Below are positions 27,023 through 43,519 of a stretch of DNA of 55,588 bases, one piece after another; positions within the stretch are counted from its first letter, which is position 1; every line of letters begins with the position of its first letter. Source of the stretch: Clostridiales bacterium (GTDB lineage: Bacteria; Bacillota; Clostridia; Oscillospirales; Oscillospiraceae). The notes under the pieces are model-generated. The model saw only the letters and a program-made list of their open reading frames with translations. It did no database searches and was not told the origin of the DNA. Location of the stretch: assembly GCA_021202515.1 (NCBI GenBank), contig JAJQCW010000070.1, positions 1 to 55,588 on the forward strand, given 5' to 3'. The translations under genes and the position numbers were made by a program.

Positions 27023-27040
27023 GGGAATCAGGAGGTCATG

Positions 27041-27709
27041 ATGACATTACAGGAAGCAATGCACGCACGGCATAAAGTGAGCAAATACCAGAACAAGCCG
27101 CTGCCGGCGGATGTGATTCAGCAGCTCAACGACAGGATCAAGGCGCAGAATGAGGAATATAACTTGAACATCCAGCTTGTAACGGAAAGCAAGGATGCGA
27201 TGCCGGGGATCATCGCGAAGCTGATGTCCAAAGGCGTTCAGAACTTCATCATTCTCGCAGGCCCTGATACACCGGACGTTGACGAAAAGCTGGGGTACAG
27301 CAGCGCCGATTTGATGCTTTACGCGCAGACGCTGGGGCTGAATAGCTGGTGGATCGGCGGAATGTACAGCCGCAAGGGAGCAAGAAAGAACTCTGTCGCA
27401 GGAGAGGACGCGAAAATCATCGGGATCGTCGTTGTTGGCTATGGGGAAGACCAGGGGGTCCCCCACAAATCCAAAGCCGCGTCAGACGTATCCTCCTATG
27501 ACGGGACTGCCCCGGAATGGTTCCAGGCGGGCGTCTCCGCCGCTCTGTTAGCGCCAACGGCGATGAATAAACAGGCGTTTACCATCCAAGGAAAAGGCAA
27601 TCAGGTGAGCATGACCTGCAACAACGGCTCCTATTCCGGCGCCGACCTCGGCATTTGCAAATATCATTTTGAGCTTGGCGCAGGAAAAGAAAACTTTCAT
27701 TGGGCGTAA
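27041..27709 (+). CDS. Second nitroreductase-like protein
   Basis: This 222-residue protein is related to nitroreductases of the TM1586-type group: it opens with ARHKVSKYQNKPL in place of the usual RRSxR motif, so FMN binding may differ. The stretch GYSSADLMLYAQTLGLNSWWIGG fits the family core, and LLAPTAMNKQ near 180 echoes the usual APSxxNxQ loop, here C-terminal. The second of two adjacent ATGs is taken because it has the better spacing from AGGAGG. The operon is shared with the first nitroreductase, 18 nt upstream. Confidence 0.75.
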   Translation: MTLQEAMHARHKVSKYQNKPLPADVIQQLNDRIKAQNEEYNLNIQLVTESKDAMPGIIAKLMSKGVQNFIILAGPDTPDVDEKLGYSSADLMLYAQTLGLNSWWIGGMYSRKGARKNSVAGEDAKIIGIVVVGYGEDQGVPHKSKAASDVSSYDGTAPEWFQAGVSAALLAPTAMNKQAFTIQGKGNQVSMTCNNGSYSGADLGICKYHFELGAGKENFHWA

Positions 27710-28181: not shown

Positions 28182-28973
28182 TTACCGCAGACGGATGATC
28201 TTCGCCGGGCACTTCTCCGCGCACTTGCCGCAGCCAATGCACTTGTTGTAGTCGATGTGGGCGACGTTGTCCTTCAGGGTGATAGCGCCCTGCTCGCACT
28301 GACGCACGCACAGACCGCAGCCCAGGCAGCCCACGTCGCACAGCGCCTTGACCGTCTTGCCCTTCTCGGTGCTGCTGCACCGGACGGCGTAAGTGCTGCG
28401 GTCCGGCACCAGCTCGATGAGGTTCTGGGGACAGGCTTTCACGCAGCTTCCGCAGGCCACGCACTTGGAACGGTCCACCACGGCCACGCCGTTGACCACA
28501 TGGATGGCGTCGAACTGGCAGGCTTTGACGCAGCTACCGTAGCCCAGGCAGCCCTGCTGACAGGCGCGGACGCCCTTGCCGGGCAGGGAGCCTGCCGCTT
28601 CGCAGCTCTCGATGCCAAAGTAGTTGCACTTGACCTTCATCACGTCGCAGGTGCCCGCGCACTTGACAAAGGCGACCATTTTTTCGGTGCTGTCGGCGCT
28701 GATGCCCATGATTTCGGAAATCTTATCCGCCACAGGCGCGCCGCCCACCGGACAGGCGTTGACCGGAGCCTCGCCCTTGACGATGGCAGCCGCCACCGCG
28801 TCACAGCCAGCGTAGCCGCAGCCGCCGCAGTTGTTGCCGGGCAGACACTCCCGGACGGCGGCTTCCCGCTCGTCCACTTCCACGTGGAAGGTCTCGCTGA
28901 CGAACACCAGCATCAGGCCCACCAGCAGGCCAATGACCGCGAGGATCAGGATACTGGAAACAATCAATGTCAT
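28182..28973 (-). CDS. rnfB: Rnf complex subunit B, Fe-S protein
   Basis: This 263-residue subunit takes electrons from reduced ferredoxin. An N-terminal membrane helix (about 5-25) is followed by the CLPGNNCGGCGYAGC cluster motif (about 43-57) and then several [4Fe-4S] ferredoxin motifs, including CVACGSCVKACP, CLGCGLCVRQC and CIGCGKCAEKCP. Length is in the normal range. It is the last gene of the minus-strand array, following rnfA after 18 nt, and lies just before the shared terminator. Confidence 0.95.
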   Translation of the reverse strand: MTLIVSSILILAVIGLLVGLMLVFVSETFHVEVDEREAAVRECLPGNNCGGCGYAGCDAVAAAIVKGEAPVNACPVGGAPVADKISEIMGISADSTEKMVAFVKCAGTCDVMKVKCNYFGIESCEAAGSLPGKGVRACQQGCLGYGSCVKACQFDAIHVVNGVAVVDRSKCVACGSCVKACPQNLIELVPDRSTYAVRCSSTEKGKTVKALCDVGCLGCGLCVRQCEQGAITLKDNVAHIDYNKCIGCGKCAEKCPAKIIRLR

Positions 28974-28991
28974 CGTTCAGTCCTCCCTTTC

Positions 28992-29570
28992 TCAAGCCAG
29001 GCCGCTGAAGCCGCAGAACGCAATGGCCATCAGCGCGGCGCTGAGCAGCACGATGGGTGCGCCCTGGAACGCCTTGGGGATGTTTTCGTTGTACGCCAGC
29101 CGCTCCCGGATACCAGCCAGGACGACGATGGCGATGGTGTAGCCAACGGCGGTGCCAAAACCAGCCAGAACGCTCTGGATGAAGTTATAGCCGTCGGTGA
29201 CGTTGTTCAGCGCCACACCCAGCACCGCGCAGTTGGTGGTGATGAGGGGCAGGTAGATGCCCAGCGCGCTGTGGAGGGCGGGGACCGCCTTTTTCAGGAA
29301 CATCTCCACCATCTGCACCAGGGCTGCGATGACCAGGATGAACACGATGGTCTGCAAATAGCTCAGGCCCAGGGGGTCCAACACGAAGTCATAGAGCAGG
29401 TTGGCCACGCCGGAGGCGATGGTGATGACGAAGATGACCGCAGCGCCCAGGCTGCCCGCCGTCTCGATCTGCTTGGAAACGCCCAGGAAGGAGCAAAGCC
29501 CCAGGAACTGGTTCAGCACCACGTTATCGACGAAGGCGGCGGTAATCACGATCATAAACAGCGATGTCAT
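28992..29570 (-). CDS. rnfA: Rnf complex subunit A
   Basis: This 192-residue membrane protein has six helices. It opens LFMIVITAAFVDNVVLNQFLGLCSFLGVS, in which the conserved Cys of NQFLGLC lies in a half-membrane helix. RnfA and RnfE are paralogues and together hold the intramembrane [2Fe-2S] site in the family. The second Cys-bearing segment is TTNCAVLG near 112. The start overlaps the rnfE stop by 4 nt. Confidence 0.95.
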   Translation of the reverse strand: MTSLFMIVITAAFVDNVVLNQFLGLCSFLGVSKQIETAGSLGAAVIFVITIASGVANLLYDFVLDPLGLSYLQTIVFILVIAALVQMVEMFLKKAVPALHSALGIYLPLITTNCAVLGVALNNVTDGYNFIQSVLAGFGTAVGYTIAIVVLAGIRERLAYNENIPKAFQGAPIVLLSAALMAIAFCGFSGLA

Positions 29571-30268
29571 ACGGTTTCACCCTCCTTTGTCTCAGCGGTC
29601 TCCTGCTTGGGAGTGGCGCAGGGCTGGCCGCAGGTGGCGCAGCAACCGTCGCAGCTCTCCACCTTGTCGTTGGCGGCGGTGTCGATCTGCGCGCCGTTCA
29701 TAATGGCGATGATGATGGCCAGCACCAGGAACGCGCCGGGCGCCTTGGTCAGAATGGCCACCGGCTCATAGAAGCCGGGCATGACCTGCACACCGAACAG
29801 GGTCCCCGCGCCGAACAGCTCGCGGACGATGCCGATGAGGGTCAGGGCCAGGGTGAAGCCGAGGCCCATGCCCAGGCCGTCCATGACGGACAGCAGGGGC
29901 GGGTTCTTGGCGGCATAAGCCTCCGCCCGGCCCAGGATGATGCAGTTCACCACGATCAGCGGGATGTAAATGCCCAGCGCATCGTAGAGGAAGGGAATGT
30001 ACGCCTGAATCAGCAACTGGATCACCGTCACCAGCGAGGCCACGATGACGATGTACGCCGGCAGCCGGACCTGGTCTGGAATGACCTTCCGCAGGGCGGA
30101 GATGATCAGGTTGGAGAGGATCAGCACCGCCAGAGTGGAGACGCCCATGCCGAAGCCGTTGATGGCCGACGTGGTGACCGCCAGGGTGGGGCACATGCCC
30201 AGCATCATGATAAAGGTGGGGTTTTCCTTGACGACGCCGTTATAAATACGCTCTGTATATTTGTTCAT
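29567..30268 (-). CDS. rnfE: Rnf complex subunit E with Cys-rich tail
   Basis: This 233-residue RnfA paralogue has six helices, with family segments MMLGMCPTLAVTTSA and VVNCIILGRAEAYA. The normal membrane part ends near 200. A further tail follows, with five Cys in ESCDGCCATCGQPC and then a Glu/Lys-rich end. The tail is not needed for the usual role and resembles a metal- or cluster-binding patch. The start at 30268 has GGAGGGG upstream; a longer reading to 30286 overlaps the rnfDG stop. Confidence 0.92.
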   Translation of the reverse strand: MNKYTERIYNGVVKENPTFIMMLGMCPTLAVTTSAINGFGMGVSTLAVLILSNLIISALRKVIPDQVRLPAYIVIVASLVTVIQLLIQAYIPFLYDALGIYIPLIVVNCIILGRAEAYAAKNPPLLSVMDGLGMGLGFTLALTLIGIVRELFGAGTLFGVQVMPGFYEPVAILTKAPGAFLVLAIIIAIMNGAQIDTAANDKVESCDGCCATCGQPCATPKQETAETKEGETV

Positions 30269-30282
30269 CAATATTCCCCTCC

Positions 30283-31830
30283 TCACTGAATGTAGTTGGC
30301 GTAGAAGTCGATGGCGGCATTGACCGCGTTGACCACCGCGCCGGAGGTGGTGGAAGCGCCGGAGACGGAGTCGATCTCATCGTCCGCCGTGGAGCCGCCG
30401 CTCTTGTTCAGGGTGAAGGATTCCACCTGGACGCCCACGAACTGCTCCTTGAAGCTGTCCTCATCCACGCGCATACCCATGCCCGCAGTCTCGTTCAGCT
30501 CGGTAAAGGCGATGCCCAGGATGGTGCCGTCAGTGTCGATGCCAACCGTCATGGTGATGTTGCCGTCGAAGCCGTCGGCGGTGGTCACGTTGATGCCGTA
30601 GCCCACCACGTTGCCGGAGGCGTCGGTGCCGACCACCACGTCATTGATGTAGACATTGCCGTAGGTGCCACGGCCATAGACATCCTCCGCGAACTCTTCC
30701 ACGTTGGCGGAAATCGCGTCGTCGTAGCCGAACTCCTCCGCCAGCGGCACGACCTCCGCATAGGCAGCGGCGTTGGCGGCAATGGCCTGCTGCTCGATGG
30801 TCTCGGCAGTCATGGCGTTGACGCCGCCCAGGGCCAGGCCAGCCAGCAGGGTGATGACCGTCAGGGCAACAGCAGCCTTGGGGATCTTGGGCTTGGGCTT
30901 CTTGGCGTTGTCGCCCACGCCGAAGGGCTTGGGAATGGAGATCCGGTCGATCAGCGGGACCACCAGGTTGCCCAGGATAATGGCGTAGCTGACGCTCTCG
31001 GTGGAGCTGCCATAGGTGCGGAAAATGGCGGTCAGCAGGCCCAGCACCACGCCGTAGTAGATTTGGCCGCGGGAGGTGATGGGGCTGGTGACGGGGTCGG
31101 TGGCCATGAACAGCGCGCCGAACATCAGGCCGCCGCCGCACAGCTCTGCCAGCAGGAACAGGGGGTCGAAGCCCTGCCCGCCGAACAGCCCCATGAAGAT
31201 CACGAAGCTCAGCAGGTAGGAGCCGGGAATGTGCCAGGTGATGCCGCCGACGATGAGCAGGTAGACCGCGCCCACCAGCATGGCCGCGCAGCTAACGCCG
31301 ATGGTGCCGTCGGTGAAGCCCAGGAACATCTCGGTGATGTTCACCGTGCCACCGTTGGCCAGCACCGCCAGGGGGGTGGCGCTGGAGACGCCGTCGATGC
31401 CGAAGTCGGACATCACGGTGCTGAAGGAGATCAGCAGGAAGCAGCGGCCCGCCAGAGCGGGGTTCATAAAGTTCTGGCCCAGGCCGCCGAACACGCACTT
31501 GACGAACAAAATGGCGAACAGGCTGCCCAGATAGGGGATGTACAGCGGCACCGTGGGGGACAGGCACAGGCCCAGCATCAGTCCGGTGACCACGGCGGAG
31601 CCGTCTTTGACGGTGTTCTCCCGGTGGGTGATGTAGTCAAAGATAAACTCCGTCATCACCGCGGTCAGCACGCTGACCGCCAGAATCATGAAGGCGTGGA
31701 AGCCGAAATGCCAGATACCAAAGAGGGTGACGGGCATCAGGGCCAGAACCACGTCGTACATGGCGTGACCGGTGGACAGGTAAGGCTCTCTCAGGTGGGG
31801 AGAGGAGGAGACGTTAAGCAGTTTTTCCAT
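30283..31830 (-). CDS. rnfD-rnfG: Rnf subunits D and G fused in one protein
   Basis: This 515-residue chain has about nine to ten membrane helices of RnfD at residues 1-325, with the flavin-attachment motif DGVSSAT (146-152, Thr152). A Lys/Pro linker (KKPKPKIPK) then leads to a single helix (about 340-360) and an extracellular FMN-binding RnfG domain to 515. Its attachment motif reads DSVSGAS, so the residue at the acceptor position is Ser493 rather than the usual Thr. Usually D and G are separate genes. ApbE would load both FMNs. The start follows GAGGAGGGA. The operon order C-DG-E-A-B is otherwise standard. Confidence 0.93.
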   Translation of the reverse strand: MEKLLNVSSSPHLREPYLSTGHAMYDVVLALMPVTLFGIWHFGFHAFMILAVSVLTAVMTEFIFDYITHRENTVKDGSAVVTGLMLGLCLSPTVPLYIPYLGSLFAILFVKCVFGGLGQNFMNPALAGRCFLLISFSTVMSDFGIDGVSSATPLAVLANGGTVNITEMFLGFTDGTIGVSCAAMLVGAVYLLIVGGITWHIPGSYLLSFVIFMGLFGGQGFDPLFLLAELCGGGLMFGALFMATDPVTSPITSRGQIYYGVVLGLLTAIFRTYGSSTESVSYAIILGNLVVPLIDRISIPKPFGVGDNAKKPKPKIPKAAVALTVITLLAGLALGGVNAMTAETIEQQAIAANAAAYAEVVPLAEEFGYDDAISANVEEFAEDVYGRGTYGNVYINDVVVGTDASGNVVGYGINVTTADGFDGNITMTVGIDTDGTILGIAFTELNETAGMGMRVDEDSFKEQFVGVQVESFTLNKSGGSTADDEIDSVSGASTTSGAVVNAVNAAIDFYANYIQ

Positions 31831-31843
31831 TCCTGATCCCTCC

Positions 31844-33178
31844 TCACAGCTTGCCCTGGCGCTGGAGGTCCAGCACAATGGGCTTGGTTTGTTTGAACAT
31901 CTGGGTCAGCGGGCGCTTGGCCGGGCAGATGTAGGCGCAGCAGCCGCAGCCAATGCAGTCCAGGCCGTGGAGCTTCACATAGCGCTCGTACTCCTTGGCG
32001 GTGGCGGCCTGAGCCATCATCTGGGGCACCAGACCCACCGGGCAGGCCCGGACGCACCGCCCGCACCGGATGCAGGCGGTCTCCTTGATCTCGCAGTCCT
32101 CCACCGGGTCGTGGGTCATGCAGACCAGGGCGTTGTAGCTCTTGGCGATGGGGATGTCCAAGTCGGTGATGGCCATGCCCATCATGGGGCCGCCGATGAG
32201 CACCTTTTTCGGCTCGGCTTTCAGGCCGCCGGCGGCCTCCAGAATTTCACTACAGGAGGTGCCGATCTTCACCAGGAAGTTATGAGGCTCTGCCACCGCG
32301 TCGCCGGTGACGGTGAAGCCCTTCTCCATCAGCGGCTCGTTCAGGCAGACGGCGTGATAGATAGCGGCCAGGGTGGTCACGTTGTTGACGATGCAGCCCA
32401 GGTTGGCGGGGGTATCGTCCGAGGTCATTTTCCGTCTGGTGACGGCGTGGACCAGGTTGCGCTCGCTGCCCTGGGGGTACTTGGTCTTGAGGACCATGAC
32501 GGACATCTTCCGCTCGCCCTCGATGGCCTTTTGCATGGCGGCGATGGCGGCGGGCTTGTCGTCCTGGATGGCGATGACCGCGTCGGCGGCGGGGAACATC
32601 TGCATCAGGACCTTCAGTCCGCTGACGATCCAGCCGGGCTGCTCCTGCATGAGACGGTCGTCACAGGTGATGTACGGCTCGCACTCCGCGCCGTTGGCGA
32701 TGATGTGGTCGATCTCCTCCGGCTGCTCCGGGCAGAGCTTGATGTGGGTGGGGGTGGCTGCGCCGCCCAGACCGACCACACCTGCGGCCTGGACCTTGGC
32801 CACGATCTCCTCGTTGGTCAGCTTGGTGTAGTCACAAGGCTCTCCCACGCCGGGGGCCAGGTTGTACTGCCCGTCGTTGTCGATGACGATACACGGGGCC
32901 ATGACGCCGGCGGAGGTCATGCGGGATTCGATGGCCTTGACCTTGCCGGAACCGGAGGTGATGATGTTGGCGGACTCGAATCCGTCCGCCTTGGCGATGA
33001 TCTGCCCTGCCAGGACAGCTTCGCCTCGTTTTACAATGGGGATGGCGGGCTTGCCAACGTGCTGGTTCAGGGGGAACACCAGTTCTCCCTTCGCCTGATG
33101 GAACACAATCGGCACATTGGCGCTCAGGTCTTTATAGCCCTTTAAGCGTACGCCGCCCCGGAATGTCAGTTTTGGCAT
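31844..33178 (-). CDS. rnfC: Rnf complex subunit C
   Basis: This 444-residue soluble subunit binds FMN and NAD(H) and carries two [4Fe-4S] clusters. The N-terminal barrel is followed by a Complex I 51-kDa-like Rossmann region with the Gly-rich GVVGLGGAATPTHIKL near 132. Two cluster motifs, CIRCGRCVRACP (about 365) and CIGCGCCAYICP (about 405), are present. Length is typical for Firmicutes. It is the first Rnf gene and starts 39 nt after the last reductase gene, on the same strand and without a visible terminator between them. Confidence 0.96.
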   Translation of the reverse strand: MPKLTFRGGVRLKGYKDLSANVPIVFHQAKGELVFPLNQHVGKPAIPIVKRGEAVLAGQIIAKADGFESANIITSGSGKVKAIESRMTSAGVMAPCIVIDNDGQYNLAPGVGEPCDYTKLTNEEIVAKVQAAGVVGLGGAATPTHIKLCPEQPEEIDHIIANGAECEPYITCDDRLMQEQPGWIVSGLKVLMQMFPAADAVIAIQDDKPAAIAAMQKAIEGERKMSVMVLKTKYPQGSERNLVHAVTRRKMTSDDTPANLGCIVNNVTTLAAIYHAVCLNEPLMEKGFTVTGDAVAEPHNFLVKIGTSCSEILEAAGGLKAEPKKVLIGGPMMGMAITDLDIPIAKSYNALVCMTHDPVEDCEIKETACIRCGRCVRACPVGLVPQMMAQAATAKEYERYVKLHGLDCIGCGCCAYICPAKRPLTQMFKQTKPIVLDLQRQGKL

Positions 33179-33217
33179 AAATGCTTTCCCTCACTTTCCT
33201 AAAGCAGAAATGGAAGC

Positions 33218-35323
33218 TTACAGGGAGGCAACTTCCTTTCCGGCTACGTAGCCATAATACATAGCCATAGAATGGGACACGCCTTTCAGCGTGATGGGAT
33301 ATTCAGCGGCAAAGCGGCTGCCCTGCACGTTGCCGGCCACATACAGGCCGGGGATAATGTTGCGGTTTTCGTCAAAGGTGTGGCAGTTTTCATCCGATTC
33401 CAGGCCGCCGCAGATGACCAGCAGCAGGGCTGTCTCGAACTGGTCGGCGTAATAGGGCGGGTTCTCCAGCGGCCACATCCGGCTGGCGGTCTTGCCGAAG
33501 TCGGCGTCGAAGCCGTCCTCTGCCAGCTCGTTATACCGCTCGATGGACTCCAGCGCCGTGGCCTGAGCGTCCTCATCGTCGGGGTACATCAGGGCCACCA
33601 GCTCCTCCAGGGTGTCGGCGGTGACGCAGCGTCCGTCATCGATGGCGGCCTGGAGCTGATAGGGACTCTTGTAGTTCCGGTAGGTGGTGTTGTTGGCGGG
33701 GCCTTCGTCCTCGCTGGCGTAGTCCTCGTAGTAGCAGGCGCCGCCGTGCTCCGCGGGCATATAGGGCAACTGTTCCGGCCAGTTGGCGTCGAAGATCTGC
33801 CAGGACTTGCGGTCCTTTTGTAGCTCGATCTGGTTCTCGATCTGCTGGCCGGGGAGGTCCTCGTTCATAAAGCGCTTGCCGTTCAAATCCAGATTCAGGA
33901 AACCGGCGATGCCCATGACACCGACGCCCTCCAGGTCCGCGCCGCCGCCCATGTGGTGGATCATCGGCGCGTGAGCCTGCTGCACCTGCGCGCCGGCCCA
34001 CATACCCAGCTTGATGCCGTCGCCCATGTTGGTGAAGTTGCCCTCCACGTCCACGTTGGTGAACATCCGGGTGATGCCGTTCTCAATGACATCGGGGCAG
34101 AAGTGCTGCACCATGGCCTCGTTCTGGGAGTAGTCGCCGGTGGCGAGAATGACGCCCTTGGAGGCGTTGACGCGGAAATACGTCCCCTCGTTGGCGTCGC
34201 GGATGTACGCGCCCACACATTTGCCGTCCTCCATGATGAGCTTCTCGGCGAAGCAGCCATAGTGGGCGTCCACGTTGCCAGTGGCGACAGCCGCGTCCAT
34301 GTTGGCGTTGAAGTTGACGCTCTGGTCGGGCTTGAACTCCACAGAGGTGGGGTAACAGGGGAACCGCTCCTGGGTCCAGTCGTAGGCTTCGGGCAGGGGA
34401 TAGAAAATGGGAATCAGGAAGTTATCCGCGCTCTCGTCGGGAATGGCGGAACGGGTCTCCGGGGCGATGTACAGGCTGGTGTTGGGCTCCACCCACCAGT
34501 CAAAAACATCGCCGATGTTGTTGGCCCACTTGGTCATAATGGCCTGCTTGACCTTGTAGCAGGATTCCTGCACATGGAAATCAGAAATGGCGTTGATTTG
34601 CTCTTTCGTCCAATAATCCCGGTTCCAGTTGGCCTGCACGTTGCCGTTGATGACGGCGTACTCACCGCTGCGGCACTGGGGGCTGTCGGCCTTCTCGATG
34701 GAGATGACCTGCGCGCCCTCCTCGGCGGCAGCGCGGACAGCGGCCACGCCAGCGACGCCGCAGCCAATGACCAGCACCTCGCACTCCAGGGTCTCGGAGC
34801 AGTCGTCGTCGGTGATGTCGGGTTCCTCGCCCAGCCAGTCGTCGTCGCTGGAGGAGGTGGAAGTTTCCTCGGCGGCGGCAGTTGCGGTGCCCTGGGCCTG
34901 GGCGATACAGTCGGCGGCGGCAGTGCGGATGGCGTTGCTGGTCAGGGTCGCGCCGGAGACGCCGTCGATGTCGGCGGACTGAGCCTCCAGAATGGCGGCG
35001 GCCATGTCCTCGCCGATGGCTCCGCCGATGTCGGCGGTCTCGTTGGAAACGTCGATCTGCACATCGGTGATGCTGGTCTCGTCGAAGGTCATGGTGACGG
35101 TGACCTCGCCCAGGCCGGTGGCAGTGGCGGAATAGGTGCCGGGGGTGTACCCGCCGGAGCTGGCAGCAGTCGCGGCGGCGCTGGTGTCGCCGGTACTGGC
35201 GGCGGCGGTGCTGCTGGAGGTAGAGTACTCACAGGCGTTGAGGATGCCCAGCGTGGCGACGCTGGCCGCGCCAGCAGCCATGCCTTTGATGAAGTCTCTG
35301 CGTGAAATCGGTTGTTTTGCCAT
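33218..35323 (-). CDS. Tat-exported FMN/FAD reductase lipoprotein (third)
   Basis: This 701-residue extracellular flavoprotein has a Tat signal SRRDFIK (7-13) with lipobox LNAC, giving lipidated Cys31. An FMN_bind domain (about 60-140) carries the flavin-attachment motif DGVSGAT with acceptor Thr126. A FAD_binding_2 domain follows from about 185 (VLVIGCGVAGVAAVRAA). It belongs to the fumarate-reductase-like superfamily, but after GKRFMNE the TTRD-type segment with the catalytic Arg is missing, so the acceptor is probably not fumarate. It is clearly more distant from the other two reductases than they are from each other. A leader hairpin precedes it. AGAAAGGAAG lies before the start. Confidence 0.9.
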   Translation of the reverse strand: MAKQPISRRDFIKGMAAGAASVATLGILNACEYSTSSSTAAASTGDTSAAATAASSGGYTPGTYSATATGLGEVTVTMTFDETSITDVQIDVSNETADIGGAIGEDMAAAILEAQSADIDGVSGATLTSNAIRTAAADCIAQAQGTATAAAEETSTSSSDDDWLGEEPDITDDDCSETLECEVLVIGCGVAGVAAVRAAAEEGAQVISIEKADSPQCRSGEYAVINGNVQANWNRDYWTKEQINAISDFHVQESCYKVKQAIMTKWANNIGDVFDWWVEPNTSLYIAPETRSAIPDESADNFLIPIFYPLPEAYDWTQERFPCYPTSVEFKPDQSVNFNANMDAAVATGNVDAHYGCFAEKLIMEDGKCVGAYIRDANEGTYFRVNASKGVILATGDYSQNEAMVQHFCPDVIENGITRMFTNVDVEGNFTNMGDGIKLGMWAGAQVQQAHAPMIHHMGGGADLEGVGVMGIAGFLNLDLNGKRFMNEDLPGQQIENQIELQKDRKSWQIFDANWPEQLPYMPAEHGGACYYEDYASEDEGPANNTTYRNYKSPYQLQAAIDDGRCVTADTLEELVALMYPDDEDAQATALESIERYNELAEDGFDADFGKTASRMWPLENPPYYADQFETALLLVICGGLESDENCHTFDENRNIIPGLYVAGNVQGSRFAAEYPITLKGVSHSMAMYYGYVAGKEVASL

Positions 35324-35337
35324 AGCTTTTCTTCCTT

Positions 35338-35380
35338 TCTGCTGCACAGGGAGGGCAGGGTTCCCCACACAGCGGGTAGA
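35338..35380 (-). other. Leader hairpin before the third reductase gene
   Basis: On the minus strand, GCTGTGTGGGGA (near 35377) can pair, with several G-U pairs, with TCCCTGTGCAGC just before the ribosome-binding site. The same layout and similar sequence occur before the second reductase gene (37585-37620). The rest of the 231-nt gap (35381-35554) has another imperfect hairpin near 35415-35446 and no gene. Confidence 0.45.
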
Positions 35381-35554
35381 ATTTGCAGCCGTCCACGGCA
35401 AAAGGGCCGGAAGCGGTTCAGAAACGAAGTTCTACGTTCCGAACCTTCTGCCGCAGACGATTTTGAAACAACGCTGTAAAAAACAGGCTGTTTCGAGGGT
35501 TGTTATTTCATGCGGCGCGTCCCAGACAAGACGCACCGCTGGAATACGAAAGGA

Positions 35555-37570
35555 TTACAGGGCCGCCACGATCTGGGCCGCGCGGCGGCCAAAGGTCATG
35601 GTGCGGCCACAGGCCAGGCCGGTGAACAGGTTGGGATAGGTGTTGCCGAAGAAACCGCCGGAGCAGTCGCCGGTGGCGTACAGGCCCTCGATGGGGGTGC
35701 CGTCCTCCTGGATGACCTGCATATCGGTGTTGATGAGACAGCCGCTCAGGGTGGTCAGGTGCCAGGCGCAGGTGCGGACGCCGTAGAAGGGAGCGGTGTC
35801 CACCGGGGTCATGCGGTGGGTCTCCTTGCCGTAATCGGAATCCTTTCCGGCCTCGCACAGCTCGTTATAGCGCTCCACGGTGGCCACAAAGGTCTCGGCG
35901 GGGATGTTCAGCTTCTCGGCCAGCTCCTCCAGGGTGTCGGCCTTCTGGATGTAACCCTCTTCGATCAGCGTTTCGTTGGACGCCCAGCAGGACTCGAAGG
36001 TACTGTTGGACAGCGCCCCGTTGGGGAAAGCGAACAGGCGGCAGCAGCCCACTTCGTCGAACTGCTCGGCGTACTCCTCACAGTTGGCGTCGAAGATGTC
36101 GCAGTAGGTGTGGTAGGGCTGCATCCACATGGAGTGGAGCATGAACTCGTAGGGGCCGGACTCGTTGCAGAACCGCTCGCCGTTCAGGTTGACCTTCAGG
36201 AAGGGCTGCTCACCGAACCAGAACCACTTGCCGGTGGTCTTGTAGCCGGCGGTCTCGTCGGGCTTGACGCAGCAGCGGTTGAACATCATGGAGGCGTGGA
36301 CCGGGCTGAACTTGGCCCCCGCCCACAGCATGGCCTTGATGCCGGAGCCGTCGCAGGTGGAACCGATGGTGTAGTTGACCTTCATGTCCAGGGTCTGGGG
36401 CTGGAGGGCCTTCATCATCTCGGTGTTGGTGGCGTAGCCGCCGGTGCACATGATAACGCCCTTGCTGGCGTTGACGCGGACATAGTGGTCGTCGGTCTGG
36501 TCCTGGGCGATGATGCCGGTGACCTTGCCGCTGTCGTCCTGCTCCAGCTTGACCAGGGCGGTGGACAGCTTCCACTCCACACCCAAGTCGTCGCAGTGGG
36601 CCTGGAAAGTGGAGTTCAGGGTGGTGTCCTCCGGCGCATCGTCGGTCAGGTGGGGGCTGTGGCCGGTGGCGTAAGCCTTGTCCCGGCCAGGGTCGCTGGT
36701 GTCACCCACGCCGCCTTCCAGGCTCATGTACCAGTTGCCGGTACTCTCCAGCAGCTCGGTGAGCCAGTCCACCATCTCGCCGCTGTTGTCCTCCCAGCAG
36801 CGGATCAGGTCGGAGTTGACGTAGCCGGAGCCATAGCGGACGATGTCCTGGAGGGCTTCCATCTTATTGATTTCAAACTCCGGGTACTCCTCAAAGGATT
36901 CCTGCTGGAGCTTGGAGTTGATGGAGCCGATGTCCTCACGGGGACCGGTGGGAGAGTCCTTCTTCTCCACCACCAGCACCTTCGCGCCCTCTTCGGCGGC
37001 GGTCATAGCGGCGATCCAGCCGCCGGAGCCGCAGCCCACCACCAGAACCTCGGTGTCCAGGGTCTCGGTGATCTCGTCCTCGGAGATTTCGGGGGCCTCG
37101 CCCAGCCAGTCGGAGGAACCGCTGTCCTCTTCCTCGCTGACGGTGACGGTGGTGCCGCTGGCTTGGGAAATGCAGTCGGCGGCGGCGGTCTTGATGGCGT
37201 TGCTGGTGACGGTGGCGCTGGAAACCGCGTCCACATCGCAGGACTGAGCGTCCAAAATGGCCTGAGCCATCTGGTCGCCAATCGCGCCGCCGATGTCGGC
37301 GGTCTCACCGGAAACATCGATCTCCACCGCAGTGATGCTGGTCTCGTCGAAAGTCATGGTGACGGTGACGTCGCTGGCAATACCGGCAGCGCTGGCGGAG
37401 TAGGTGCCGGGGGTATAGGTCAGGGAGCCAGCGGCACTGGCGGCGCTGGTGTCCGCGTCGCTGGCCAGAGCGATTTCGCTGCCGCCGAGCGCGCCCATCG
37501 TCGCCACGCTGACAGCGCCCGCAGCCATACCTTTGAGGAAGTTTCTGCGGGAAATAGGTTTATTTGCCAT
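35555..37570 (-). CDS. Tat-exported FMN/FAD reductase (second, no lipobox)
   Basis: This 671-residue flavoprotein has a Tat signal SRRNFLK (7-13), but the end of the signal lacks Cys: it reads GALGGSEIALA-SD, more like a signal peptidase I site. The FMN_bind domain has attachment motif DAVSSAT with Thr120. The FAD domain begins near 165 (VLVVGCGSGGWIAAMTAA). Sites following GERFCNE read SGPYE, without the fumarate-reductase Arg. It is very similar to the gene at 37650-39695, including 501 identical nt. AGAAAGGAAG precedes the start. Confidence 0.9.
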   Translation of the reverse strand: MANKPISRRNFLKGMAAGAVSVATMGALGGSEIALASDADTSAASAAGSLTYTPGTYSASAAGIASDVTVTMTFDETSITAVEIDVSGETADIGGAIGDQMAQAILDAQSCDVDAVSSATVTSNAIKTAAADCISQASGTTVTVSEEEDSGSSDWLGEAPEISEDEITETLDTEVLVVGCGSGGWIAAMTAAEEGAKVLVVEKKDSPTGPREDIGSINSKLQQESFEEYPEFEINKMEALQDIVRYGSGYVNSDLIRCWEDNSGEMVDWLTELLESTGNWYMSLEGGVGDTSDPGRDKAYATGHSPHLTDDAPEDTTLNSTFQAHCDDLGVEWKLSTALVKLEQDDSGKVTGIIAQDQTDDHYVRVNASKGVIMCTGGYATNTEMMKALQPQTLDMKVNYTIGSTCDGSGIKAMLWAGAKFSPVHASMMFNRCCVKPDETAGYKTTGKWFWFGEQPFLKVNLNGERFCNESGPYEFMLHSMWMQPYHTYCDIFDANCEEYAEQFDEVGCCRLFAFPNGALSNSTFESCWASNETLIEEGYIQKADTLEELAEKLNIPAETFVATVERYNELCEAGKDSDYGKETHRMTPVDTAPFYGVRTCAWHLTTLSGCLINTDMQVIQEDGTPIEGLYATGDCSGGFFGNTYPNLFTGLACGRTMTFGRRAAQIVAAL

Positions 37571-37584
37571 AGTTTCTCTTCCTT

Positions 37585-37620
37585 TCTGCTGTGCGGAGAG
37601 CGCAGGGGTCTCCACACAGC
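37585..37620 (-). other. Leader hairpin before the second reductase gene
   Basis: On the minus strand, GCTGTGTGGAGA pairs with TCTCCGCACAGC (one G-U pair), directly before AGAAAGGAAG. It sits in the 79-nt gap after the first reductase. The matching element before the third reductase suggests a duplicated gene-plus-leader unit. Confidence 0.55.
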
Positions 37621-37649
37621 GGGACGGTTTTACAGCCTTGCGCGGCAAA

Positions 37650-39695
37650 TCACAGAGCCGCGACGATTTGCGCCGCACGGCGGGCAAAGGTCATGGTACG
37701 ACCGCAGGCCAGGCCGGTCATCAGGTTGGGATAGGTGTCGCCGAAGAAGCCGCCGGAGCAGTCGCCGGTGGCGTACAGGCCCTCGATGGGGGTGCTGTCC
37801 TCCCGGATGACCTGCATATCGGTGTTGATGAGGCAGCCGCTCAGGGTGGTCAGGTGCCAGGCAGTGGTCCGGACGCCGTAGAAGGGAGCGGTGTCCACCG
37901 GGGTCATGCGGTGCTTCTCCTTGCCGTAATCGGTGTCCTCACCGGCCTCGCACATCTCATTGTAGTGCTCCACGGTGGCCACGAAGGTCTCGGCGGGGAT
38001 GTTCAGCTTCTCAGCCAGCTCCTCCAGGGTGTCGGCCTTCTGGATGTAACCCTCTTCCATCAGAGCCTCGTTGGACTCCCAGACCGCCTCAAAGGTGTTG
38101 TTGGACAGCGCACCGTTGGGGAAGGCGAACAGGCGGCAGCAGCCCACTTCGTCGAACTGCTCGGCGTACTCCTCACAGTTGGCGTCGAAGATGTCGCAGT
38201 AGGTGTGGTAGGGCTGCATCCACATGGAGTGGAGCATGAACTCGTAGGGGCCGGACTCGTTGCAGAACCGCTCGCCGTTCAGGTTGACCTTCAGGAAGGG
38301 CTGCTCACCGAACCAGAACCACTTGCCGGTGGTCTTGTAGCCGGCGGTCTCGTCGGGCTTGACGCAGCAGCGGTTGAACATCATGGAGGCGTGGACCGGG
38401 CTGAACTTGGCCCCCGCCCACAGCATGGCCTTGATGCCGGAGCCGTCGCAGGTGGAACCGATGGTGTAGTTGACCTTCATGTCCAGGGTCTGGGGCTGGA
38501 GGGCCTTCATCATCTCGGTGTTGGTGGCGTAGCCGCCGGTGCACATGATAACGCCCTTGCTGGCGTTGACGCGGACATAGTGGTCGTCGGTCTGGTCCTG
38601 GGCGATGATGCCGGTGACCTTGCCGGTGTCGTCCTGTTCCAGCTTGACCAGAGCGGTAGACAGCTTCCACTCCACGCCCAGGTCGTCGCAGTGGGCCTGG
38701 AAGGTGGAGTTCAGGCTGGTGTCCTCCGGAGCGGTATCGGTCAGGTGGGGGCTGTGGCCGGTGGCGTAAGCCTTGTCACGGCCGGGGTCGCTGGTGTCGC
38801 CCACGCCACCTTCCAGGCTCATGTACCAGTCGCCGGTGCTTTCCAGCAAATCGGTCAGCCAGTCGATCATCTCGGCGCTGTTGTCCTCCCAGCAGCGGAT
38901 CAGGTCGGAGTTGACGTAGCCCGCGCCGTAGCGGACGATTTCCTGAAGGGCTTCCATCTTGTCGATCTCAAACTCAGGATACTCATCGAAGGATGCCAAC
39001 TGGAGCTTAGAGTTGATGGCGCCGATATCCTCACGGGGCCTGGTGGGGGATTCGTTCTTTTCCACCACCAGCACCTTCGCGCCCTCTTCGGCGGCGGTCA
39101 TAGCGGCGATCCAGCCGCCGGAGCCGCAGCCCACCACCAGAACCTCGGTGTCCAGGGTCTCGGTGATCTCGTCCTCGGAGATTTCGGGGGCCTCGCCCAG
39201 CCAGTCGGAGGAACCGCTGTCCTCTTCCTCGCTGACGGTGACGGTGGTGCCGCTGGCCTGGGAAATACAGTCGGCAGCGGCGGTCTTGATGGCGTCACTG
39301 GTGACGGTGGCGCTGGAGACGCCGTCCACGTCGCAGGACTGGGCGTCCAGAATGGCCTGGGCCATATCGTCGCCAATCGCGCCGCCGATGTCGGCGGTCT
39401 CGCCGGAAACGTCGATCTCCACCGCAGTGATGCTGGTCTCGTCGAAGGTCATGGTGACGGTGACGTCGCTGGCAATACCGGCGGCGCTGGCGGAGTAGGT
39501 GCCGGGGGTGTAGCTCATGGAGCTGGCAGCGGTAGTGCCGCCGCTGGAAGCAGCCGTCGAGCTGCTGGTCGAGGCGGTAGTACTGGACATGCCACTCTCA
39601 CAGGCCTGGAGTACGCCAAGGGTCACGACGCTGGCTGCGCCTGCCGCCATGCCCTTGATGAAGTCCCGGCGGGAAATGGGCTGTTTTTTTGCCAT
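37650..39695 (-). CDS. Tat-exported FMN/FAD reductase lipoprotein (first)
   Basis: This 681-residue extracellular flavoprotein has Tat signal SRRDFIK (9-15), lipobox LQAC with lipidated Cys32, and a low-complexity Ser/Thr linker to about 60. The FMN_bind domain has motif DGVSSAT, acceptor Thr130. The FAD_binding_2 domain starts near 175 with GCGSGG and ends with GLYATGDCSGGFFGNTYPNL-like sequence (here GDTYPNL). It lies 97 nt after tatC on the same strand. It is the nearest relative of the second reductase, and the two probably arose by tandem duplication. GGGAGGAAA precedes the start. Confidence 0.92.
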   Translation of the reverse strand: MAKKQPISRRDFIKGMAAGAASVVTLGVLQACESGMSSTTASTSSSTAASSGGTTAASSMSYTPGTYSASAAGIASDVTVTMTFDETSITAVEIDVSGETADIGGAIGDDMAQAILDAQSCDVDGVSSATVTSDAIKTAAADCISQASGTTVTVSEEEDSGSSDWLGEAPEISEDEITETLDTEVLVVGCGSGGWIAAMTAAEEGAKVLVVEKNESPTRPREDIGAINSKLQLASFDEYPEFEIDKMEALQEIVRYGAGYVNSDLIRCWEDNSAEMIDWLTDLLESTGDWYMSLEGGVGDTSDPGRDKAYATGHSPHLTDTAPEDTSLNSTFQAHCDDLGVEWKLSTALVKLEQDDTGKVTGIIAQDQTDDHYVRVNASKGVIMCTGGYATNTEMMKALQPQTLDMKVNYTIGSTCDGSGIKAMLWAGAKFSPVHASMMFNRCCVKPDETAGYKTTGKWFWFGEQPFLKVNLNGERFCNESGPYEFMLHSMWMQPYHTYCDIFDANCEEYAEQFDEVGCCRLFAFPNGALSNNTFEAVWESNEALMEEGYIQKADTLEELAEKLNIPAETFVATVEHYNEMCEAGEDTDYGKEKHRMTPVDTAPFYGVRTTAWHLTTLSGCLINTDMQVIREDSTPIEGLYATGDCSGGFFGDTYPNLMTGLACGRTMTFARRAAQIVAAL

Positions 39696-39791
39696 AAAAT
39701 TTCCTCCCAAAAATAAAGTCTCTGGTTTTGTGCAGGGGTTTTATTCCAGCGGCCCGACCTGTGGCCGCAGGATAGATAAGATGAATGGGGG

Positions 39792-40580
39792 TCACGCTTC
39801 TCCGGCGGATTCTTCCTCGTCCTCCTCGTCAAGGTGCCACAGCTTTGTGCAAATTTTGCACAGGAAGATGCTCAGCTCTAGCAGAGCCATCATGGGGAAC
39901 GCAACCATGATTTGGGACAGGATGTCCGGCGGGGTGATGATGGCGGCCAGCACGAAGATGAGGACGAACAGCACCTTCCGGGACTTGGCCAGCCACTGGG
40001 GTTTGAGCAGCCCGATGCGGGTCAGCAGAACGGACACCACCGGCAGCTCGAACACTGCGCCGAACACCACGAACACCGTCAGCAGGAAGTTGACATAGCT
40101 CTGGATGCTGACGGCGGCGGATACGTCGGTCCCCACGCTCAGGTCCATAAAGAAGTAGAGCATAAAGGGGACGCTGATTTTGTAGGCAAACAGCACGCCC
40201 ACGCAAAAGCACACCGCGCCAAAGCCCACGGCCAGCAGGAAGAACAGCCGTTCCCGCTTTTTCAGGCCGGGGGCGCAAAAGGCGTAGATGTGGTAGAAGA
40301 TCACAGGCGAGCTGATGACCAGGCCGCCGATGGCGGCGATGGACAGTTGGACCGTCAGCAGCTCCTGGGGGGCGATGTAGACGAACTTGTAGTCGTAGTC
40401 CTCGCCCAGGTCGGTGAACAGCTCCACCAACTGGGGGGCGAAAAACAGACACACCAGCACCGCGGCCACCAGAAAGACCACGCAAATGACGATGCGATTG
40501 CGCAGTTCTTTCAGGTGTCCGCTCAGGCTCATCTCCCCGTTGTCGGGCACGGACGGGGCTTTTTTCTTACGCCTGTTCAT
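39792..40580 (-). CDS. tatC: Twin-arginine translocase subunit TatC
   Basis: This 262-residue membrane protein with six helices is the receptor for Tat signals. It opens with the typical [19 protein letters not shown], has [21 protein letters not shown] in the second loop region and ends with a charged cytosolic tail. Length is normal. It overlaps the small tatA gene by 14 nt and precedes the three genes whose products carry SRRxFxK signals, so the translocase and its likely cargo share one transcript. Confidence 0.96.
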
Positions 40581-40752
40581 CCTGGGGCTTGCTCTCCTCC
40601 TGCTGCTCGGACTTGTCGTCGTCCTTCATGCCGTCCCGGAAGTTCTTGATGCTGCTGCCCAGCATTTTAGTCAGCTTGGGGATCTGCGTGGGGCCAAACA
40701 AGACCACTACGATCAGCAGAACAACGATCAGCTCAGTTGTACCGATTTTCAT
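40567..40752 (-). CDS. tatA: Twin-arginine translocase subunit TatA (short)
   Basis: This 61-residue protein has a short extracellular start, one membrane helix ([13 protein letters not shown]), then an amphipathic helix ([15 protein letters not shown]) and an acidic tail. This is the pore-forming TatA pattern with the FGP hinge. Its start overlaps the end of the longer TatA/B-like gene by 4 nt and its end overlaps tatC by 14 nt. Confidence 0.95.
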
Positions 40753-41252
40753 GTGGTTTCTCCTCCTTTATTTTGGTTTAACGTGGCGTCCTCCGCCATT
40801 GGAGGAACCGCTTCCGGCTCCTCTGATGCATCGGGCGCGACAGCCGGGGGAGCGGTTACCGCTTCCGGGGCCTGCACCGGTTCCGGCGCCGCCGTCTCCG
40901 CTGCCGGGGTCTCCGGCGCTTCGGCGGCAGGAGCCTGCTGCGTCTTTTCCGCAGCGGGCTTTTTCTTCGGCTTTCCGATGCTATTCAGAGAGGTTTTCAC
41001 CTCTTTGACGCTGTCTTTGATCTCCTTGTCCATCTCCTCCAGAGGCTCCATGGCCTCCCGGATGGGAGCCTGGGCCTCCTCCAGAGGCTCCACCACGTTC
41101 TCCCGGATCTCCGAGGTCAGGTCGTTGGTGGCCTCCCGGAAGGCCCGCAGGCCCGCGCCCAGTTTTTTGGCGAACTCCGGGAGTTTGTCCGGCCCGATGA
41201 CCACCAGGGCCACGATGAAGATGACCACCAGTTCCATAAAGCCAATTTTCAT
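40749..41252 (-). CDS. TatA/TatB-like protein with long acidic tail
   Basis: This 167-residue protein has the TatA/B N-terminus: [26 protein letters not shown], with GP hinge and amphipathic helix. The cytosolic part is longer than in TatA, with a helical charged region to about 90 and a Pro/Ala/Glu-rich unstructured tail. Length and Glu content fit TatB better, but Firmicutes usually have only TatA types, so the name is left open. It is the first gene of the array, 177 nt from the divergent MerR gene; GAAAGGAGAG precedes the start. Confidence 0.88.
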
Positions 41253-41355
41253 GTGCTGTCTCTCCTTTCACAGGGCTGTCCGCCCGGGCCGGGCGGCAGC
41301 AGGACCGGATGCACGGCGCGAACCGTCTGATTCCGGTAAAAATCGAAAAAAATGA

Positions 41356-41384
41356 TTGAAAAGCGTCTCTCTTTCCGCTAAACT
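41356..41384 (+). promoter_or_regulatory. Probable promoter of the merR-like gene
   Basis: TTGAAA (41356-41361) and TAAACT (41379-41384) are 17 nt apart, 45 nt before the start. The 177-nt divergent region should also hold the tat operon promoter, but I could not pick a convincing one on the minus strand. Confidence 0.45.
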
Positions 41385-41429
41385 ATAGGAACAAAGGGAT
41401 AAATAAAAACGAAACAGGAGCGAACCCCT

Positions 41430-42254
41430 ATGGCAAAGCAAAAAACATATCGCATGGGCGAATTTTCCCAACGGCTGGGCGTCACCCGGGACCTGATCAA
41501 GCACTACGAAAAGCAGGGCATCCTCACCTCCCGGCGGGAGGAGGGCAACCAGTACCGGTACTATTACCACTCGCAATATCCGGCCATTCTCATCAGCAAG
41601 AAGCTGCAAAACACGGGCTACTCCCTGCGGGAGATCGGCCACCTCCTCAACGAGGCCAGCCTGGAGGAATACACCGACGAAAACGCCGGGCGCATCGCCG
41701 CGCTGGAGCGGGAGCAATTGCTTCGGGAGATGGCATTGGAGAACCTTCGGTTCGTCTACGCCTGCCAGCAGAAAGCGCTGGAGGGAACGCTGCTAGGCAG
41801 TTGGGAACTGAATGATCAGCCCGGCCTGGTCTTTTTCCCCTTCTCCGGGATGAACGAGTTCCTGCCCCTCTCCCCGGAGGACATCGACGCCATGGCGAAC
41901 TGGACCGACGCCACCCCAGCGGTGGAGTATTGCAGGCTGATCCGAGATGGCAAGGTGATCTTCGGTTTTACCGCCTCGGCGGAGCAGGCCCGGCTGCTTG
42001 GGCTGCATGGCAGTCAGGTGGAGCAGCTCCCCGCCTGCCGCACCTTCTGCTACTACCTGAAATTTCCCCGTTCCACCATCGGCGGTCAGGCAAACACCGA
42101 CGAGGAGGAAATTCAGAAAATGCTCCCCCCGGCGCTGGCCGCGCTGGAGGCGCAAAACCTGACGGCGGCAGGGCCGATCCTGATCCGGCACCTGTTTGAA
42201 GCGTCGGAGGCCGGGAGCTTTTACTATTACTGCCAGGCGAGCATCCCCATTTGA
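41430..42254 (+). CDS. MerR-family regulator
   Basis: This 274-residue regulator has a winged-helix DNA-binding domain at 1-75 (YRMGEFSQRLGVTRDLIKHYE then GYSLREIGHLL), a coiled-coil dimer helix at about 80-115 and a C-terminal domain of about 150 residues, perhaps GyrI-like, for an effector. There is no metal-site Cys pattern at the C-terminus. It is divergent from the tat-reductase-rnf array and followed by apbE, so control of the respiratory module in response to a small organic ligand is the natural guess. AGGAG precedes the start. Confidence 0.87.
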   Translation: MAKQKTYRMGEFSQRLGVTRDLIKHYEKQGILTSRREEGNQYRYYYHSQYPAILISKKLQNTGYSLREIGHLLNEASLEEYTDENAGRIAALEREQLLREMALENLRFVYACQQKALEGTLLGSWELNDQPGLVFFPFSGMNEFLPLSPEDIDAMANWTDATPAVEYCRLIRDGKVIFGFTASAEQARLLGLHGSQVEQLPACRTFCYYLKFPRSTIGGQANTDEEEIQKMLPPALAALEAQNLTAAGPILIRHLFEASEAGSFYYYCQASIPI

Positions 42255-42478
42255 GTCAAACCCCTACGCCGCCACTTTAAATATTACTAACAGATGTATT
42301 ATAAAGTTGAGTGTAACACACAGGTCAATAGGCTTTGTCAAATTTGCCGTCTTTTTCTGGTTTCTTTTATTCTTTTTTGTCGATTTAGGGAAACGCTGAT
42401 TGATGACAAAGTTGAAAGTGATTGCGATGTGAAAGTCATTGACCGTTGGCACAAAGCGCTAAAACAGGGAGAATTAAA

Positions 42479-43519
42479 ATGAAAAAATGCAAACAGCTTC
42501 TCTGCTGCCTGCTCTCAATGTTACTGCTGGCCGGCTGCTCTGCCGGGGCAGCAGAGCCTGACCCGGAGGCGGCGGAGTCCAGTACCCAGTATATGGACGC
42601 CATGGACACTTTCATGACCCTGACCGCCTACGGCAGCAACCGGGACGACGCCCTGAACGCCGCCGTGGAGGAAATTCAGCGGCTGGAGGCCCTGTGGTCC
42701 GTGGGCAGCGAGGACAGCGAGGTCTCCCAGTTGAACCGGGAGGGGACCGCCGTCCTCTCGGAGGACACCGCCGCCCTGGTCGAACGCGCCCTGGAGATCT
42801 ACGACAGCACTGGCGGAGCCTTCGACATCACCGTTTACCCCCTGATGGAGCTGTGGGGCTTCACCACCCAGGACTATCAGGTGCCGGAGGCGTCCGACCT
42901 GCAAGCCGCCCTGGCCCTTGTGGGCGCGGACCGCGTTACCTATGACAGCTCCACCTCCACCGTCACCCTGGGCGAAGGCCAGTCCATCGACCTGGGCGGC
43001 ATCGCCAAGGGCTACACCTCCCAGCGTATCATGGAGCTGTTCGAGGAGATGGGCGTGACCTCCGCCATGGTCTCCCTGGGCGGCAACATCCAGTGTCTTG
43101 GGACCAAGCCCGACGGCTCCCTCTGGCGGGTGGGCATCCAGGACCCGGTGGGCAGCGAAGGGGCCATCGTCGCGGTCATCGAGGTGGAGGACCAGGCGGT
43201 CATCACCTCCGGCTCTTACGAGCGGTACTTCACCGATGAGGCCACCGGCGAGACCTACCACCACATCATCGACCCCGCCACCGGTTACCCGGCGGACAGT
43301 GGCCTGATCTCCGTCACCATCGTCACCGACGACGGCGCGTTGGGCGACGCCCTCTCCACTGCCCTGTTCATCATGGGCCTGGAGGAGGGGACCGCCTACT
43401 GGCAGGCCCACAGCGACGAATTTCAGGCCGTGTTCATCACCACTGACAGCGAAATTTACGTCACCGCAGGGTTGGAGGATTCCGTCACCGCCGACGCGGG
43501 GTACACCCTGCTCACATAG
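42479..43519 (+). CDS. apbE: ApbE flavin transferase lipoprotein
   Basis: This 346-residue FAD:protein FMN transferase links FMN to Thr/Ser of [S/T][G/S]A[T/S]-type motifs outside the membrane. A lipoprotein signal ends in LAGC, lipidated Cys20. Family marks: MDTFMTLTAYG near 38, the GGAFDITVYPLMELWGF stretch near 112, IDLGGIAKGYTSQRI near 172 and HHIIDPATGYPADSG near 262. Length is normal. It lies downstream of merR on the plus strand. Its likely targets are RnfD, RnfG and the three reductases next door. The 224-nt gap before it is AT-rich with no clear promoter. Confidence 0.95.
   Translation: MKKCKQLLCCLLSMLLLAGCSAGAAEPDPEAAESSTQYMDAMDTFMTLTAYGSNRDDALNAAVEEIQRLEALWSVGSEDSEVSQLNREGTAVLSEDTAALVERALEIYDSTGGAFDITVYPLMELWGFTTQDYQVPEASDLQAALALVGADRVTYDSSTSTVTLGEGQSIDLGGIAKGYTSQRIMELFEEMGVTSAMVSLGGNIQCLGTKPDGSLWRVGIQDPVGSEGAIVAVIEVEDQAVITSGSYERYFTDEATGETYHHIIDPATGYPADSGLISVTIVTDDGALGDALSTALFIMGLEEGTAYWQAHSDEFQAVFITTDSEIYVTAGLEDSVTADAGYTLLT

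Follow-up and report, generated by a model that had tools for sequence, protein, structure and literature searches.

A conserved Tat-reductase-Rnf locus in Clostridiales, a probable respiratory module with RnfG as candidate electron exit

Many gut and rumen Clostridia carry Rnf and no recognised respiratory chain, and their flavinylated reductases outside the cell need a donor. In a Clostridiales bacterium (contig JAJQCW010000070.1; "the window" is the whole analysed stretch of 55,588 nucleotides), genes for a twin-arginine translocation (Tat) system, three flavin reductases (Red1, Red2 and Red3) and an Rnf complex stand in one row. Does Rnf supply these reductases? We found that the locus is conserved and ties reductases to Rnf, which makes Rnf a candidate donor. 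It is probably a conserved Tat-reductase-Rnf respiratory module in which the RnfG flavin feeds the exported reductases; within this reading, we infer the electron transfer, the covalent FMN and the acceptor. The components are all of known kinds, combined in a way that appears to be new. The features are as follows.

40749..41252, minus strand: tatB/tatA-like gene (TatA_B_E), 167 aa; Pfam PF02416, 3.5e-17
40567..40752, minus strand: tatA, 61 aa; Pfam PF02416, 3.3e-15
39792..40580, minus strand: tatC; Pfam PF00902, 1.2e-60; the sole TatC match of its genome
37650..39695, minus strand: Red1, Tat lipoprotein-type FMN_bind + FAD_binding_2 reductase, 681 aa; lipobox LQAC read from the sequence
35555..37570, minus strand: Red2, near-copy of Red1 with a non-lipobox Tat signal, 671 aa; domain, Tat-pattern and alignment evidence
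33218..35323, minus strand: Red3, divergent Tat lipoprotein-type reductase, 701 aa, 41% to Red1; lipobox LNAC
31844..33178, minus strand: rnfC (NADH/FMN + 4Fe-4S subunit); TIGR01945, 495.7 bits, cut-off 245.95
30283..31830, minus strand: rnfD-rnfG fusion (rnfDG), single reading frame, 515 aa; PF03116 + PF04205, PDB matches to RnfD and RnfG
about 30307-30573, minus strand: FMN_bind domain within the rnfDG frame
29567..30286, minus strand: rnfE; TIGR01948 over cut-off
28992..29570, minus strand: rnfA; TIGR01943 over cut-off
28182..28973, minus strand: rnfB; TIGR01944, 105.2 bits, cut-off 68.7
41253..41429, no strand: divergent intergenic region between tatB and the MerR gene, read from the sequence
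41430..42254, plus strand, divergent: MerR-family regulator with an unassigned C-terminal region; Pfam MerR_1
42479..43519, plus strand: apbE, FMN transferase with a lipoprotein-like signal LLAGC (by eye); Pfam PF02424, 3.8e-93

The array runs on the minus strand from 41252 to 28182 in the order tatB-tatA-tatC, Red1-Red2-Red3 and rnfC-DG-E-A-B without a strand switch, in coordinates that rest on start codons chosen in this analysis. An earlier sequence-only reading had claimed this array, and its genes, order, strand and coordinates were all recovered from open reading frame (ORF), Pfam and NCBIfam evidence. Spacing within it ranges from a 14-base overlap to 231 bases, the maximum lying between Red2 and Red3; a consensus scan of these gaps found no minus-strand terminator-like sites, which gives weak evidence that the array may be a single transcript. 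The window held no riboswitch or other Rfam RNA at the gathering threshold, and the C-terminal region of the MerR protein matched no effector domain or family. All six Rnf subunits (A, B, C, D, E and G) are present: A to E exceed their TIGR cut-offs, and the RnfG part, at 96.0 bits against a cut-off of 102, is supported as G by its FMN_bind and PDB RnfG matches. Two nitroreductase-family genes (window 26498-27709) converge on the array from beyond its rnf end.

Red1, Red2 and Red3 are each built of a twin-arginine signal, an FMN_bind domain that carries a flavinylation motif, and a FAD_binding_2 domain. The exact Tat-signal pattern matched three times in the window, against a mean of 0.05 in shuffles; TatC, TatA-family proteins and twin-arginine cargo, the membership of a Tat translocase, are all present. 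The threonines named earlier as flavinylation sites proved correct by alignment (T130 in Red1, T120 in Red2, T126 in Red3). The description of the three as lipoprotein reductases stands for Red1 (LQAC) and Red3 (LNAC) and falls for Red2, which has no lipobox cysteine and shows an ALA-S cleavage-like site instead (by eye).

A comparison of gene neighbourhoods bore out the predicted conserved Tat-cargo-Rnf unit. The genus sample comprised 32 genomes, 23 of which have RnfC at E <= 1e-40, and 21 of these 23 (the window counted) have one to three reductase copies, some of them interrupted or truncated, immediately before rnfC. Of the 23, 17 have Tat genes upstream, four (L244, L245, L249, L251) run out of contig before that point, and two have neither. 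Two of the 17 (L250, L258) keep only TatA-type genes at the locus, with TatC elsewhere in the genome. In every genus locus whose examined stretch extends far enough, C and DG are followed by rnf A, E and B. The two exceptions to reductase adjacency, G194 and G710, carry reductase scars beside rnf and apbE. The G194 locus aligns with G134 on both flanks, and between them about 3.2 kb is missing, comprising tatBAC and about five-sixths of the reductase. Some 50 colinear bases of the tatC region persist, which implies one or two adjacent deletions. The G194 genome has no TatC match, and the scar is its only reductase match among those listed (three of seven candidates scored). G710 retains a decayed signal and a C-terminal reductase piece, with no Tat at the locus. 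Rnf and apbE were kept in both genomes. Since Tat and reductase were lost and Rnf stayed, Tat travels with its cargo at this locus, and Rnf has a separate use.

Beyond the genus, the wider set consisted of the best 80 of 92 loci, picked by two peptide patterns of the reductase family and including close kin. They form 13 clusters at 80% identity, 7 of them with reductase-RnfC adjacency, and their record titles name rumen, 'Lapin' and horse-faeces metagenome-assembled genomes, plus Clostridiales bacterium NK3B98, a carrier in the window's genus that is probably a cultured isolate and whose tatC is apart from the locus. The reductase ORF has a twin-arginine motif in 75 of the 80 loci; among the other five, the end of the contig truncates the reductase in three (L132, L171, L182), L146 is a frame without its N-terminus, and L143 has SRK, in a genome with no TatC match. 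RnfC occurs in 36 of the 80 loci, TatC lies directly before the reductase in 36 and RnfC directly after it in 32, and 28 loci have both arrangements. Where at least 4 kb was available on each side (n = 46), Tat abuts the reductase block in 25 loci, RnfC does so in 20, and both do in 20. D and G are fused in 31 of the 36 RnfC loci and separate in L168, and four are cut or not reached. In a tree of 49 RnfC sequences, 35 of the 36 module Rnf share a clade, within which nine plain operons also fall, and L168 belongs to another lineage. The module label needs at least four changes on the starred branches of this tree, which indicates that the link between Rnf and reductase was gained or lost more than once.

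The linkage also recurs with other Rnf lineages and export types. Besides L168, G163 and G095 have Tat genes that converge with an unfused Rnf operon, the reductase is divergent from rnfC in L238 with no Tat at the locus, and L237, again with no Tat at the locus, has an Rnf-linked reductase whose sequence shows, by eye, a hydrophobic N-terminus together with a catalytic-Arg motif. At L237:3727-9927 this reductase, which has two flavinylation motifs as well as the catalytic-Arg motif, stands directly before rnfC-rnfDG; what follows rnfDG is a 356-aa ORF that belongs to no Pfam family and matches RnfA weakly (25 bits), and neither E nor B could be recognised there.

These neighbourhoods bear on an alternative without wiring, which we consider unlikely: Tat and the reductases would owe their place next to rnf to history or to shared regulation, and electrons would come from another source, such as a multi-FMN protein at the surface or a further membrane donor. 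Many relatives do carry the reductase away from Rnf, Rnf exists without a reductase, and contig C60 of the window's own genome carries another apbE alongside a 3-FMN and a 1-FMN protein. Against this, the reductase-RnfC junctions are tight and recurrent (-37 to 194 bases in 32 loci), the linkage is repeated with different Rnf lineages and export types, and UbiA was not found. The C60 cluster (L050:4373-13829) has the look of a cell-wall flavin wire: it holds the second apbE, a 3-FMN_bind protein, a 1-FMN_bind protein and a FIVAR/fn3 surface protein of 1802 aa.

What else could Tat export in this organism? TatC occurs once in the window's genome (2.63 Mb, 97.6% complete). The consensus Tat pattern matched nine times there, against ten in the reversed control, in a search that covered the consensus and left looser Tat signals outside. 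Four of the nine matches open a long ORF and continue in a signal-like way; every one of these belongs to an FMN_bind/FAD reductase, namely Red1-3 and one on contig C26 (L049:9830-12007; about 37% to Red1), which adjoins a class II aldolase gene. The remaining five are short frames or have no preceding start codon. In the family sample (300 genomes) TatC exceeded its cut-off in 13, and in the order sample (394 genomes) in 10; the window's genus is part of both. Among the 80 genomes with a Red1/2 relative, TatC was matched in 74: in the locus in 44, and elsewhere in the genome in 30 of the other 36 (the match of G658 has an internal stop, and that of G667 is cut). The co-occurrence of TatC and reductase is an association, since the 80 reductase genomes and the family and order samples are taxonomically unmatched. 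Weaker TatC matches, each with one internal TAA and E of about 1e-21 to 1e-22, were seen in G651, G652, G654, G655 and G658 (L123, L124, L126, L127, L130), in four of these five genomes beside a full TatC elsewhere. The tatC of L255 and one reductase copy of L257 are each split into two ORFs.

Several observations weigh against the module reading. Neither Tat nor Rnf lies in the examined stretch of 32 of the 80 loci, some of them cut by contig ends, so adjacency is not required. Six of the 36 reductase genomes without TatC at the locus have no TatC match at all, and five of these six have a twin-arginine, cut or variant signal. Two same-family genomes without a TatC match (G089, G214) encode five reductases of the same class with Sec lipoprotein-like starts (by eye), and four TatC-bearing family genomes (G275, G230, G116, G090) showed no such reductase in the Tat-locus stretch read. 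Rnf itself is broader than the module: RnfC is near-universal in the family (264 of 300 genomes), Rnf persists where Tat and the reductases have gone from the locus, the D-G fusion is also present in rnf operons without Tat, and the NADH-site motif of RnfC has its usual form in most module loci, so that the NAD+ branch is probably intact. The words "self-contained" and "dedicated", which the sequence-only reading had applied to the system, therefore are not supported for Rnf, and a fourth Tat reductase lies on another contig.

Further details attach to these points. TatC-bearing G116 has one same-class reductase with a Sec lipoprotein-like start (by eye), and the flavinylation pattern matched in four of the six Sec-type reductases of G089, G214 and G116. 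A twin-arginine Fe-S protein lies near the Tat genes of G230. The idea that all Tat of the family serves flavin reductases was rejected, as for G275, G230, G116 and G090 the stretch read has Tat and no such gene. The sole full RnfC of the window's genome is that of the array, and its motif is altered (GAATPT for GAGFPT); degradation of the RnfC NADH site as a mark of the module was rejected, the alteration being confined to the window's close kin. The D-G fusion as a mark of reductase-coupled Rnf was rejected too, since it also occurs in family rnf operons without Tat or reductase. It is full-length and in frame in at least 15 of the 250 family genomes with a match, 10 of the 15 having no TatC match; G225 and G189 add two further fusions at 34-40% identity. 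Eleven fused loci were read from ten of the genomes with the fusion, and a reductase lies beside Rnf in L237 and in none of the others' examined stretch.

The main rival keeps the same wiring and changes the donor. In this NADH route, electrons would pass from RnfC through RnfD and RnfG outward, bypassing the Na+-pumping RnfA/E, and the system would be an NAD+-restoring electron sink rather than an energy-conserving chain. It is favoured by the retained NADH-site motifs, by the physical fusion of D and G and by two-subunit NQR/RNF-like systems proposed to run outward similarly (PMC8238504, PMC10979944). The altered RnfC motif of the window and the presence of A, E and B after C and DG in the genus argue against it, and we regard the NADH route as improbable, if less so than the alternative without wiring.

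We return to the module reading with ferredoxin as donor. UbiA-family prenyltransferases are needed by quinone pathways. No UbiA match was found in the window's genome or in 19 of 20 other genomes of the genus, with 14 of 14 controls positive; quinones could be taken up instead. Synteny, co-occurrence and this quinone gap together support the earlier proposal that Rnf is the likely electron source. The reductases would fold with FAD in the cytosol and leave through the neighbouring Tat, and ApbE would attach FMN outside, on the three threonines and on the RnfG site. Electrons from ferredoxin would pass through RnfB and RnfA/E to the RnfG flavin. In the structural model of Rnf (PMC11889175), Na+ is moved at the cluster of RnfA/E, ahead of electron arrival at RnfG; electrons that leave from RnfG could therefore still drive pumping. 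From RnfG, electrons would jump to the FMN domain of a reductase and on to the FAD of the same protein, where an extracellular organic C=C acceptor would be reduced. This scheme would make RnfG a branch point, leading either to NAD+ via RnfD/RnfC or to the outside acceptor, and part of the Rnf electron flow would end outside the cell.

Which acceptor might this be? The flavinylation motif, D-x-x-[ST]-[GS]-A-[ST], reads SSAT in Red1/2 and SGAT in Red3, and the FMN-site residue is T in 44 and S in 5 of 49 aligned reductases; these alignment columns, some of whose rows have extra residues before Met, supersede a regular-expression pattern that missed 26 of 77. FccA works with a catalytic Arg and substrate His/Arg residues. 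Fumarate-reductase residues of that type were not found: Tyr (Red1/2) or Gly (Red3) stands at the FccA Arg, and the remaining substrate His/Arg sites are T, V or A and the YPN loop. In the 49-reductase profile, Red1 Y485 (alignment numbering) aligns with both the FccA catalytic Arg and KSTD1 Y318, and the YPN..TG loop aligns with KSTD1 Y487 and G491. Across the 49 rows, the Y485 position is Y in 45 and G in 4 (the Red3 type), the loop Y is invariant, and the G is kept in 48. The key residues of KSTD1 are given as Y119, Y318, Y487 and G491 in PMC5348764; three of these four have counterparts in Red1/2, by numbering counted from the alignment, and the Y119 region is unaligned. The best NCBIfam match of Red1/2 is vinyl phenol reductase VprA (NF053717), at 215.8 and 213.5 bits, far under the cut-off of 600. 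Without fumarate-reductase residues and with three of four KSTD residues, enones or vinyl-phenols fit better than fumarate. From such sequence features the acceptor is perhaps a carbonyl- or phenol-conjugated alkene, a tentative assignment well short of an even chance.

The likeness of the active-site tyrosines and glycine to 3-ketosteroid dehydrogenase also suggests the reverse direction, with the enzymes acting as dehydrogenases that feed RnfG and Rnf running backwards. Reduction of NAD+ or ferredoxin from such couples would be steeply uphill. Moreover, the characterised FMN_bind relatives named in PMC8238504 are reductases, and we hold this direction to be very improbable.

Why does the array hold two near-copies? 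We compared Red1 and Red2 in three genomes (the window, L111 and L112), with identities taken from ungapped columns only. Over the first 60 columns, DNA identity is 0.60-0.65 between the Red1-Red2 paralogs and 0.87-0.97 between orthologs; after column 60 the paralogs reach 0.91-0.96 and the orthologs 0.915-0.93, and in L111 172 codons are base-identical between the two genes. The lipobox is present in Red1 and absent from Red2 in all three genomes. Red1 and Red2 (window 35555-39695) evolve in concert apart from their export signals, which fits gene conversion of the enzyme body with the signals kept separate. A regular expression recognised lipobox-like signals in 20 of 77 reductases, with L140 and L141 starting at a wrong Met. 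Lipidated Red1 and Red3 would sit beside Rnf, and Red2 would be the same enzyme as Red1, released or differently anchored.

Taken furthest, the locus could encode a quinone-free and possibly cytochrome-free respiration with Rnf as the whole chain: Na+ would be pumped, electrons would leave at RnfG to Tat-exported flavinylated C=C reductases, the Na+ gain would be uncoupled from the NAD+ supply, and gene conversion would keep one enzyme body at two addresses, lipid-bound and free. We find this full version possible, slightly short of an even chance. If it is true, the energy yield of Rnf is not necessarily limited by NAD+, and plant or host enones and phenylpropenoids could be a source of sodium-motive force for these bacteria. 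The conserved locus offers a direct test of Rnf as donor to outside reductases.

Listeria-type extracellular electron transfer (FLEET) is a quinone-dependent route, whereas the window's genome has no UbiA match; quinone uptake is possible there, and Ndh2 and EetB were not searched. A title search found no earlier description of a Tat-reductase-Rnf locus, with most subscription journals outside its coverage and an earlier report possible, and the word "Tat" is absent from the main texts of PMC8238504, PMC10979944 and PMC12052999. In contrast to the NQR/RNF-like unidirectional system, which joins an RnfD-like protein to an NqrF domain, D is here fused to G, and PF00175, the NAD-binding NqrF domain, was not among the Pfam matches of the Rnf ORFs. 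Red1/2 share with 3-ketosteroid dehydrogenase the counterparts of KSTD1 Y318, Y487 and G491; unlike KSTD and VprA they are exported, carry a flavinylation motif and score far below the VprA cut-off. The Listeria fumarate reductase and Shewanella UrdA resemble the array in being exported FMN_bind + FAD_binding_2 proteins with an ApbE site and a proposed role as terminal reductase, whereas the array has Tat genes and Rnf co-located, no UbiA match, and the catalytic Arg and His/Arg replaced. With Rnf as ferredoxin:NAD+ oxidoreductase the array shares the six functions and the order C-D-G-E-A-B, and it differs in the D-G fusion, the reductases and Tat genes upstream and the proposed outward electron exit. 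A precedent for Rnf feeding an outside acceptor is Methanosarcina acetivorans, where Rnf is proposed to pass electrons with Na+ pumping to the outside protein MmcA (PMC6703419); that acceptor is a multiheme cytochrome, whereas the array would use covalent-FMN reductases. For Rnf clusters with multi-flavinylated RnfG (Meheust 2021, PMC8238504), a second Rnf exit to outside acceptors is likewise proposed; the exit of the present array would be a set of separate substrate reductases with a Tat system of their own.

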